From assembly GCF_021134715.1 (NCBI RefSeq), contig NC_060024.1, forward strand, positions 2,480,001 through 2,544,000: a DNA stretch of 64,000 nt, read 5' to 3'. Shown in pieces: positions 49,931-57,745 of the stretch (the first letter of the stretch is position 1; every line of letters begins with the position of its first letter). The stretch is from Daphnia pulex (taxonomy: Eukaryota > Arthropoda > Branchiopoda > Diplostraca > Daphniidae). The notes under the pieces are model-generated. The model made no database searches and was not told where the DNA came from. It worked only from the letters and a program-made list of their open reading frames with translations. The position numbers were made by a program, and so were the translations under genes.

Positions 49931-50123
49931 ATGAAAATTATGGTAAAACCCAAATAATTCTTTTCATATGATAACTATTTCAGAAATTTAATTTTGTTTC
50001 TGCTTTTTGTCTCTCTGCCCAGCAAAATCCGATCAGATCGCGCGCACTAGCGTGTTGATGGTGGCCTTTGCCGAAGCCGTTGAAGAAACTGGACAAATCG
50101 ACGTCGATTTGGACGGTCCACAG
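49931..50123 (+). pseudogene. Small secreted-peptide gene, probably decayed
   Basis: A 12-base coding exon (ATG 49,931 to 49,942; MKIM) is followed by GTAAAA. An 80-base intron ends CTCTCTGCCCAG, and an exon at 50,023-50,123 ends at GTATAT. This mirrors the Gly/His-rich gene at 53,090 (12-base first exon, MKVV). In the spliced frame a TGA follows after about eleven codons. One base off, the exon is open and encodes VLMVAFAEAVEETGQIDVDL, similar in style to a signal peptide end plus acidic propeptide. I infer a frameshifted relative. A 5' splice variant or sequence error could rescue it. No later exon was identified. Confidence 0.45.
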
Positions 50124-50795: not shown

Positions 50796-50841
50796 GTTAT
50801 ATTATACAGGGCGATATGAGGGACAACAATGGGGGGCAATG

Positions 50842-50915
50842 TGGCGGAAGTGGGAATCGAACACGGGACAATTTCATATAACGCTAGATGCTATATCCAT
50901 TATACCATGGCCGAA
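50842..50915 (-). tRNA. tRNA-like sequence (pseudogene or SINE head)
   Basis: The minus strand contains an A box (GGTATAATGGATATAGC) and a B box (GTTCGATTCCC) at the right spacing, and starts GGCCATGG. The T stem and anticodon stem contain mismatches, so it is probably not a functional tRNA. Confidence 0.45.
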
Positions 50916-52984: not shown

Positions 52985-52991
52985 TATAAAA
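52985..52991 (+). promoter_or_regulatory. TATA box of Gly/His-rich precursor gene
   Basis: TATAAAA lies 35 bases upstream of an initiator-like GCAGTCTC (A at 53,020), which gives a 5' UTR of about 70 bases before ATG 53,090. Confidence 0.75.
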
Positions 52992-53089: not shown

Positions 53090-53900
53090 ATGAAAGTCGT
53101 GGTAAGCTTTTGATTATGACTTTTGAAAGAGAGCAGCAGCAGCCAATTAACATTTGAACGGTTCTAATTATTATGTGATGGCTTCAGAACTCATATAGTT
53201 TGAAATTTTGGTTATTGACAATTTTTATTTTCTCTCTTTGAATCAACAGATTATATTAGCGTGCTGGACAGCGCTGGCCGCCGCCCAAATCTTAAGGCCA
53301 ATTGTCGCCGATTTAGATGCGGCCGCAGATCATCATGAGAGCCACGGCGGAGGCCATGGAGGTCACCATGGCGGAAGCAGTCACCACGGCGGAGGCGGTC
53401 ACCACGGCGGAGGCGGAGGCGGTCACCACGGCGGAGGCAGCAGTCACCACGGCGGAGGTAGTAACCACGGCGGAGGCGGACATTACGGAGGCGGGGAATA
53501 TGGACGCAAACGCCGCTCTATTGAAGAAATCCAAGCAGCAATCGCCGTTGCGGAATCCGTCGTCGATGCCTCTGCAGATTTAGACGTGGCCGCAGATCAT
53601 CATGGGACAAACGGCGGAGGCCATGGAGGTCATCATGGCGGAAGCAGTCACCACAGCGGAGGTGGTCACTACGGCGGAAGCAGTCACTACGGCGGAGGCG
53701 GTCACCACGGCGGAGGTGGTCATAACGGTGGCGGACATTACGGTGGCGGTGATTGGGGACGCAAGCGCCGCTCTATTGAAGAAATCCAAGCAGCAGCAAT
53801 CGCCGTTCCGGAATCCGTCGTCGATGACTCTGCCGATTTAGATGTGGCCGCACAACATGACGAGGGCTACGGTTTTTCGGGCTTCAGAACGTTATGGTGA
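53090..53900 (+). CDS. Gly/His-rich secreted precursor with two GRKRR processing sites
   Basis: Two exons: 53,090-53,101 (MKVV) and 53,250-53,900, with a 148-base GT-AG intron, giving 220 residues. Residues 1-17 form a signal peptide (IILACWTALAAAQ). Two modules follow. Each has an acidic leader (DLDAAAD; DLDVAAD), a tract of 55-60 residues made of GG, HH, SSHH and GHY units, and GRKRR (residues 89-93 and 174-178). After each GRKRR comes SIEEIQAA, an Ala/Val-rich acidic spacer. RKRR is a furin-type cleavage site, and a Gly before basic residues is the classical amidation signal, so peptides ending EY-amide and DW-amide are predicted. The modules arose by internal duplication. Possible roles, all inferred, are a histidine-rich antimicrobial or metal-binding peptide or a cuticle component. 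The promoter is TATA-driven. Confidence 0.85.
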
Positions 53901-55929: not shown

Positions 55930-57745
55930 TTAGCCGATTGAACTTGATGGCCACTGAACACCAGGGGTCCCTGGCGTTCCGGGAATTCCTGGTACTCCGA
56001 CTATAGAATATAATGAAAACATAAACTCGTCGTCAATTTTATTAATTAAACACTAAAGCATATAGTTTGAAAATATTTATTTTACCTGGCCCGCTAACGC
56101 CAGTGGCACCTGATAATCCAGCTACTCCGCTAGGCCCGGCTGCTCCTACCGATCCATCTTGATCATCTTGGCCATACGTTCCGGGCCTTCCATCTTGGCC
56201 GTCTTTTCCAGGAGGACCTATAAGAAATAAAGGATAATCATGGTGAATTAATTATGTAGGCGAGCAATTTACCCTTAATTAAAAAAAAATTTAAAATAAT
56301 AAAACCCATTTTATGTACCAGGTGGACCCGGAGCTCCGTCTTGACCATCTTTCCCGTCAACTCCATCCTTCCCATTTTGTCCGGCAGTTCCTGGTTGACC
56401 TTTCAAGAAAACAAATATCGGTGTCATTTAATAAATATAGTTTTGGAGTATTATTATAAACCTGGTGCGCCGGGTGGTCCAGCTGATCCATCTCTTCCGT
56501 CTTTTGCATTCTGTCCTGGTGTACCGGAAGGCCCTTTGAAATGCAGTTAATTAATACAATTTTTCCTAATCAGGCATTTTTCGTTTCTATTTTGACAATT
56601 AAATTTAAAATTTGTTGACAAACTCGCCGTACCAGCAGCGCTAGGAGTCCCATCCTTCCCGTTCGTTCCATCGGAACCATCCTTTCCGTCGCTCCCTATT
56701 TTGAAATTACATTTAACGCATTTTGGTTAAGTGGAATAAAAATGTAACAGTTTAAACTTGACGGACCTTGTGGGCCTTGCGACCCTTGAACTCCTTGAGC
56801 ACCAGGTATTCCGGGAGGACCTTGAGGGCCCGGTGAGCCGTTCATACCATTTTGCCCCGGAGGACCTAAGTGCATACAACCAGTTAACAAAAATTCTCGC
56901 GCGAAATTTAAAAGAAAACCTGCGAAACAATTTAACATACCCATAAGGCCTTGGGGTCCGGGCTGACCAATTGCTCCGGGGATTCCGTCTCTACCATCCT
57001 TCCCATCGACACCGTTAATTCCATGAATACCATTGACACCGTCTTTTCCTACACACCAAAGAATCGCAGGAATAAAAGAATAAAAAGAATTATGATTTAA
57101 TATCAGTAGCGACAGATAATAGTACCAGCTGGTCCAGGAGGTCCGACGAGTTCATACAACCACGGAGGTGGCAGTTTGTCTTTACCCTTTTTCCCTGAAA
57201 AGAAATCGTAAGGATTGGCTGTTCGGGAACGCACATCTATACGAAAAATCACGCCAGTCTTTGCACATGAGTACACACAAGCACGCTATTTAATGTAATA
57301 TAAAAAAAATTAACTTACTTTGTTCTGGCATCTGTTGTTCCTGATTTCGGTTATTTCCACTTCTTTGGCGATTAATTTTCGTCACCTTCGGAATGGCAAC
57401 GAGTCCCATCCTGGCCAGAGATGTTAACCTACGCTCGACATGGCCAGCTAATAACTCGTATCTTCTGTACACATCCCTTAATCTGTCACTCGATTGGTAA
57501 TTAATCCAGCGGCGGAAAGCCGAATAATCTTGGACAAACGGCCAAGGTGGAAGTAGAGATGGCGGATAAGACGCTAACAGGAATTCACCGACGTTAACCT
57601 GAAGCAACCGCTGTTGCAAATCTCGTTTCGACGCTGGTTTCAGGATAACTGGAACCGACTTGTACCAATTGAATTCGTCGTCGGTCATATTGAACTGCGG
57701 CCGACGCATTGATGTTTGCATTTGAGACTGCGTCATCCACACCAT
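55930..57745 (-). CDS. Collagen-like protein, 9 coding exons, 373 residues
   Basis: Minus-strand exons are 57,745-57,319, 57,194-57,126, 57,048-56,941, 56,865-56,767, 56,695-56,633, 56,533-56,462, 56,399-56,319, 56,217-56,086 and 56,000-55,930. All join in phase 1, seven of the eight within a Gly codon, for 1,122 coding bases. The N-terminal ~142 residues are non-collagenous (FNWYKSVPVILKPASKRDLQ; DVYRRYELLAGHVERRL), then comes RKKGKDK, then Gly-X-Y repeats with short breaks, many as GKDG. The end is GVQWPSSSIG with no NC1-type domain, so it is not a fibrillar or type IV chain. An upstream ATG at 57,843 (MKTS, 12 bases, donor GTAATA) would be one base out of frame. In the frame that fits, the exon start reads CCFFAMVW, which would complete a signal peptide. 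The start is therefore uncertain. Confidence 0.82.

Follow-up and report, generated by a model that had tools for sequence, protein, structure and literature searches.

A candidate family of multi-peptide precursors in Daphnia with Gly/His-rich modules and a possible role in host defence

Introduction

Holotricin 3 and tenecin 3 are Gly/His-rich, single-unit secreted peptides that are not known to have furin-Gly modules, and shepherins I and II are both released from one precursor. The shepherins, as described, are GGH-repeat peptides from the plant Capsella; they are the nearest in composition to the Daphnia tracts reported here, and differ in their plant origin and in their lengths of 28 and 38 aa. 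According to the available text, zinc boosted the activity of shepherin I and an amidated analogue against some Candida strains (PMC10698721). The beetle peptides holotricin 3 and tenecin 3 are listed among the Gly-rich arthropod antimicrobial peptides in a report on armadillidin H/Q of the isopod crustacean Armadillidium vulgare, which is 47% Gly and active on bacteria and filamentous fungi (PMC5031766). What that report describes suggests that native armadillidin is amidated; the synthetic peptide was made without C-terminal amidation (PMC5031766). Amidation is also described for acanthoscurrin of a spider and serrulin of a scorpion, Gly-rich haemocyte peptides that carry a C-terminal amide (PMC6784228), and the nlp-29 cluster of Caenorhabditis elegans is described as consisting of genes, duplicating in clusters, for antimicrobial peptides that are rich in Gly and Tyr and belong to the neuropeptide-like group (PMC2453101).

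Here we describe a Daphnia pulex gene that resembles these systems in part. Like the tracts of its product, armadillidin comes from a crustacean and has a repeated Gly-rich motif with His in most units; it differs in its size (53 aa), in the Arg of its repeat and in being inactive on Candida in that study (PMC5031766). Acanthoscurrin and serrulin differ in that the amidated residue is Lys, and the serrulin sequence given in the source is without His tracts (PMC6784228). The nlp-29 cluster, compared by description, is a nematode family, and acidic-spacer modules are not among the features described in the available part of its report (PMC2453101).

Results and Discussion

Gene Model

The window (the whole 64,000-nucleotide stretch of D. 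pulex DNA analysed) contains at 53090-53900 on the plus strand a two-exon gene, read from the sequence, with a product of 220 aa. The protein comprises a signal-like start (judged by eye), spacer 1, tract 1, GRKRR, spacer 2, tract 2, GRKRR, spacer 3 and a tail. The features are as follows.

52985..52991, plus strand: TATAAAA box, 105 bp 5' of the ATG; both near copies on the same chromosome (C8) have it at the aligned position
53090..53101, plus strand: exon 1, ATGAAAGTCGTG (MKVV), start of the predicted signal peptide; the same type of 12-base exon followed by GT occurs at 12 other family loci
53102..53249, plus strand: intron, GT...AG, 148 bp; the equivalent join reproduces database protein P0010 at locus L052
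53250..53900, plus strand: exon 2, remaining reading frame and TGA stop
53328..53501, plus strand: Gly/His tract 1, 58 aa (residues 31-88), ending ...GGGEY
53502..53516, plus strand: site 1, GRKRR, possible amide-donor Gly and furin-type site
53517..53594, plus strand: acidic spacer 2, SIEEIQ...ADLDVAA, 26 aa, net charge -6
53595..53756, plus strand: Gly/His tract 2, 54 aa (residues 120-173), ending ...GGGDW
53757..53771, plus strand: site 2, GRKRR, possible amide-donor Gly and furin-type site
53772..53852, plus strand: acidic spacer 3, SIEEIQ...ADLDVAA, 27 aa, net charge -7
53853..53897, plus strand: C-terminal tail QHDEGYGFSGFRTLW, 15 residues, without a cut site; missing from both C8 copies

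All the elements recognized in the initial annotation, namely the signal peptide (by eye), two homologous Gly/His tracts, two GRKRR motifs and SIEEIQAA spacers, are in place. Spacer 1 is short and has a net charge of -1. Tract 1 is 52% Gly and 28% His (16 His), and tract 2 is 50% Gly and 24% His (13 His); both are devoid of Lys and Arg, with a net charge of -2 to -3 when His is left out. The protein shares with Gly-rich antimicrobial peptides a high Gly content and secretion, the latter judged by eye; its tracts lack the cationic character at neutral pH that is typical of such peptides and would be strongly positive solely in acid or with bound metal. A search of PDB sequences with the window protein returned weak matches alone, the best being ribosomal protein L15 (E 0.014).

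Elsewhere in the window, a short open frame on the minus strand (56696-56944) encodes collagen-like Gly-Pro repeats (GPPGQNGMNGSPGPQGPPG...) and could be one exon of a collagen-like gene. A tRNA-like stretch near 50840-50915 was discarded, as it was not called by ARAGORN.

Related Loci in the D. pulex Genome

Searches of the genome (133.2 Mb in 13 contigs) with the spacers and proteins of relatives as queries identified at least 16 loci of this design, 10 of which look intact on reading. On its sequence, the window gene is one member of a Daphnia family and no stand-alone oddity. The loci are listed below.

C8: window gene, L013 and L014, intact-looking
C6, 2.22 and 2.36 Mb: L024 and L025, intact-looking
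C2, 9.63-9.64 Mb: L049a and L049b, intact-looking
C1, 7924 kb: L052, intact-looking
C6, 3.49 and 3.60 Mb: L053 and L054, intact-looking
Broken or truncated (six): window sibling at 49931, C2:9622, C2:9640, C6:26.8 kb, C1:7897 and C1:7921 kb
49931..50123 of the window, plus strand: the truncated sibling, about 3 kb upstream of the window gene, with first exon ATGAAAATTATG and GT, and a TATA box 80 bp upstream

Exon 2 of the truncated sibling starts like P0005 (VEETGQIDVDLDG) and then runs into unrelated sequence. The short first exon and its splice join recur across the family, and the window gene too has a 12-base MK.. exon with a GT intron that interrupts the signal peptide; the spliced product of L052 equals P0010 letter for letter, and P0002 and P0011 start like it. 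A TATAAA or TATATA-type box precedes 11 of the 13 located first exons, the corresponding place reading CATAAATA in L024 and, by eye, TATAAATA in L050. The first-exon pattern gave 32 matches against 6 in the control, with 12 at family loci, and the family may be larger than this; among three matches that were fetched, C6:26834 is a broken member and C8:8563420 and C8:9989851 are non-members. A degenerate DNA pattern for Gly, a basic run and acidic codons matched 57 times against 42 in the control and was therefore dropped.

Other observations concern individual loci. Three close matches of the short MK.. first-exon pattern lie at C8:8557904-8563436, and the one that was read is a non-member. 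A short family fragment adjoins L024 (C6:2217646). At L051 (C1:7897484-7897855), where a first exon was not found, the tract and GRKRR continue directly from upstream degenerate repeats; L051 is a family member cut by another repeat.

The closest relatives of the window gene are L013 and L014, near copies about 2.6 and 2.9 Mb away that are 97% and 95-96% identical to it over the matched parts. In the alignment, each copy retains the two GRKRR sites and spacers 1 and 2, apart from a single A-to-V replacement in spacer 1; the tracts of one of the two differ by a deletion of 63 bases and an insertion of 15. Most of spacer 3, along with the tail, has been lost from both copies through a common deletion, and the stub beyond their last site has no net charge. 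In a recount made for one pair, the window gene and the nearer copy L013 differ across 184 shared codons by five silent and three replacing changes (8/552 bases, 1.4%), compared with 5/144 bases in the intron and 50/578 aligned bases in the 600-bp 5' flank. These differences are weak but consistent evidence that the coding frame is conserved. Misaligned repeat codons and the tail contribute to the whole-gene pN/pS values, which are 0.26-0.35 for the C8 copies and 0.42 for L024/L025. The comparison proposed in the initial annotation, of sites and spacers against tracts, came out as expected at the level of sequence: the former are kept and the latter vary in length and composition. Duplicates, a unit number that varies (two here, one in P0001 and P0022) and the 6 of 16 loci that are broken or truncated fit birth-and-death turnover.

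Relatives in Other Daphnia and in Databases

Relatives were also found in D. pulicaria, D. carinata and D. sinensis. Full-length protein-database searches scored 7995 candidates, so that counts of relatives are lower bounds, and returned relatives, none of them identical to the window product. A tract-masked profile of nine members retrieved at least 24 proteins at E ≤ 0.1 from these candidates. The six organism-named matches all belong to Daphnia (D. carinata, D. pulex twice, D. pulicaria twice and D. sinensis), and many of the remaining ones come from metagenome contigs. A search with a single spacer returned P0001 alone, which, like P0022, is a one-tract version on a short contig, with WGRKRRSIEEIQ and without a precomputed Pfam domain. 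The L054 protein retrieved itself, C6:3486 and weak, unrelated-looking matches, and had no match in a PDB sequence search.

Database names of the relatives diverge and include holotricin-3-like (D. carinata; a match of names), glycine-rich cell wall structural protein (D. pulex) and RNA helicase. The last refers to P0012, a family member carrying a DEAD-box RNA helicase name. Its database model looks wrong, as does that of P0021, in which a Ras-like GTPase is fused to a family member. A weak match that falls outside the Daphnia-named set, P0029 ("merc", E 0.02), repeats the layout with a signal-like start, Gly/Tyr tracts, acidic spacers of the PEAEA type, and RGKR and YGKR sites; we treat it as a lead, which may reflect kinship or convergence. 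No description of the precursor family was found in titles and abstract starts of the open-licence PMC literature on Daphnia peptides, and this Daphnia family of multi-module Gly/His/Tyr precursors is apparently undescribed.

Module Grammar and Cleavage Sites

Family members are built of up to seven modules, each comprising an acidic spacer, a tract, Gly with a basic site, and Ser, an arrangement also found in the window gene. The basic site takes at least seven forms (GRKRR, RGRR, RKGR, RYGR, RGGR, HGKR and RGKR), and R-x-x-R fits 66 and RX[KR]R 55 of the 70 junctions scored. Gly precedes the final basic run at 68 of these 70 junctions from 38 proteins (48/50 without near-identical sites), the exceptions being P0003 (HGQR) and P0028 (WRHRR), whereas Gly comes before 82 of the 400 remaining basic runs of these proteins (66/329 omitting runs five or fewer residues before a junction). 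The scored junctions are 73 script matches minus a false one in each of L024, L025 and P0021; at least four sites missed by the script all have the Gly when read (GRKRR of P0002, the third of P0008 and the first of P0023 and P0024), and the scoring omitted P0006 and P0007 (weak matches), P0010 (equal to L052) and P0029. Shared descent partly inflates the Gly count. Amidation would nevertheless account for it better than descent alone, because the distance from Gly to the cut varies and yet trimming would expose Gly in 68 of 70 cases. The furin and amidation reading offered initially thus gains at the sequence level from a Gly that persists at family sites while the site form changes.

The specific products predicted earlier fare less evenly. 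A Tyr-amide and a Trp-amide fit the window gene, but many relatives would end in a predicted Arg-, Lys- or His-amide; the residue before Gly varies among members (W, Y, R, K or H), and the conserved C-terminal motif expected of neuropeptides is missing. For the release of bare (G/H)n peptides, the window gene offers no basic site between spacer and tract, so that the default products would have an acidic head and a Gly/His tail. At the spacer-tract border, D[LQ]xxxE or a variant recurs in the family, the window gene having DLDAAAD, DLDVAAD and DLDVAAQ, without the usual E. Several members on C6 and C2 have an RR pair just inside the tract, absent from the window gene, which could be a second cut site.

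The parsed spacers are acidic and the tracts of other D. pulex clades carry charges of +3 to +6; the parsable tracts of P0002 and P0003 are nearer neutral than those of other relatives. L054 (C6:3599076-3599873) has six basic 10-mers between acidic spacers, five reading HGHKK[YF]KGRK and one HRHKGYKGRK, with five of its seven spacers being 13 residues long at a charge of -4 to -5, and a Gly/Tyr/His-rich end. Judged from its translation, this is a multi-copy peptide layout, the clearest case in the family, and it makes L054 the family's best candidate for peptidomics. Apidaecin precursors of bees are laid out similarly, with short peptides in tandem, basic cuts and acidic spacers, but are proline-rich.

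Proposed Processing and Role

Our preferred reading, held with about even confidence, is that these genes form a multi-peptide precursor family of Daphnia that probably serves in host defence. Processing of the precursor appears likely from the module layout and amidation somewhat likely; the defence role itself is evenly poised. If expressed, the window gene would yield a secreted polyprotein from which the signal peptide is removed first, after which a furin-like convertase would cut after RKRR, a carboxypeptidase would trim the basic residues, and a peptidylglycine monooxygenase (PHM/PAM) would convert the exposed Gly to a C-terminal amide. The predicted output is two long Gly/His-rich products, a Tyr-amide and a Trp-amide, and an acidic C-terminal piece. 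At the sequence level the gene has the marks of an amidated-peptide precursor, namely Gly before the basic site and a signal by eye, and processing-enzyme families have matches in the genome. These are matches to PF03712 (the monooxygenase C-terminal domain, common to PHM and relatives) and PF01483 (the convertase P domain), which single out neither PHM nor furin. The acidic spacer would maintain the solubility of the precursor and also, in most of the D. pulex relatives, offset the basic peptide; it would either stay as the head of the product or be removed by some protease at the conserved D[LQ]xxxE border.

The role we envisage is antifungal or antibacterial, possibly dependent on zinc or pH via the 13-16 His of each tract. 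Defence is favoured because of the precursor grammar, the diversity of payloads, duplication and loss, and the likeness to known Gly-rich defence peptides; the non-cationic tracts of the window gene, unlike those of its basic D. pulex relatives, count against it. NF-kB-like motifs, first spotted by eye and then counted, are not used as support: they lie upstream of 3 of 10 non-redundant members, and all four motif forms are somewhat commoner there than in the window background (2 versus 0.75, 2 versus 0.25, 5 versus 1.5 and 5 versus 2.4), but the counts overlap and stem from three places. L013 is without the NF-kB-like site of its sister copies.

Alternative Explanations

The cut Gly/His/Tyr-rich pieces might instead belong to a structural secreted protein and assemble into cuticle, mandible, gut lining or the resting-egg case; furin cuts would trigger assembly, and His would bind zinc or copper or form cross-links. 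The low-complexity Gly/His/Tyr composition accords with this, as does the cell-wall name of the D. pulex relative. So does the lack of a confident fold in a single-sequence model, of a kind that is often poor anyway (mean pLDDT 46; in exon 2, no residue at 90 or above and 15 of 216 at 70-90). The GRP profile (PF07172) matches four of nine members scanned, with P0002 alone just above the cut-off (31 vs. 30) and the window protein not listed at E ≤ 1. However, the RR domain (chitin_bind_4) or another chitin-binding domain was missing from all nine, and a matrix protein needs neither a conserved Gly at the site nor the basic 10-mers of L054 nor matched acidic spacers, so we regard a structural function as rather unlikely. 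The initial annotation had named homologues lacking GRKRR, or with one tract embedded in an RR cuticle protein, as evidence against a cleaved precursor; the one-tract relatives P0001 and P0022 keep WGRKRRSIEEIQ, and the RR domain was seen in none of the nine members.

A further reading accepts cleavage but leaves the product non-amidated with its spacer attached, as an acidic-head, Gly/His-tail chain in which the site Gly is a by-product of composition or descent. Consistent with it, Gly is common in the tracts and the spacer-tract border of the window gene has no basic site; the contrast between junctions and other basic runs, obtained with low-Gly members and several site forms included, makes it improbable. 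Peptides that signal through a receptor, in the manner of neuropeptides or hormones, would likewise come from a multi-copy precursor with a signal-like start, a repeated peptide, Gly with a basic site, and acidic spacers. Yet, L054 apart, most of the peptides are long, variable and of low complexity, the would-be amidated residue varies (Y, W, R, K or H), which is unusual for a receptor ligand, and the family shows duplication and loss; signalling is therefore very improbable. Slighter still is the chance that the gene is a recently duplicated, unexpressed copy without present function: the database search gave relatives and no protein identical to its product, spacer 3 and the tail are lost in two near copies and 6 of 16 loci are broken or truncated, but its frame, splice sites and TATA box are intact, tract indels are in-frame and changes lean silent.

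Implications for Daphnia Immunity

An immune-gene survey of D. pulex published in 2009 failed, according to its available text, to find antimicrobial peptides (PMC2685406). Under the host-defence reading of the precursor family, we tentatively suggest, as a possibility that leans towards the doubtful, that one constant frame of acidic spacers and processing sites with widely differing payloads (Gly/His, Gly/Tyr/Arg and Lys-rich 10-mers) supplies these missing peptides in amidated form, the window gene being a His-only version switched by pH or zinc. The family was found by its module grammar rather than by homology to insect peptides and so provides antimicrobial candidates that are directly testable. 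A single precursor frame with swapped payloads would also be useful for studying the evolution of peptide arsenals.
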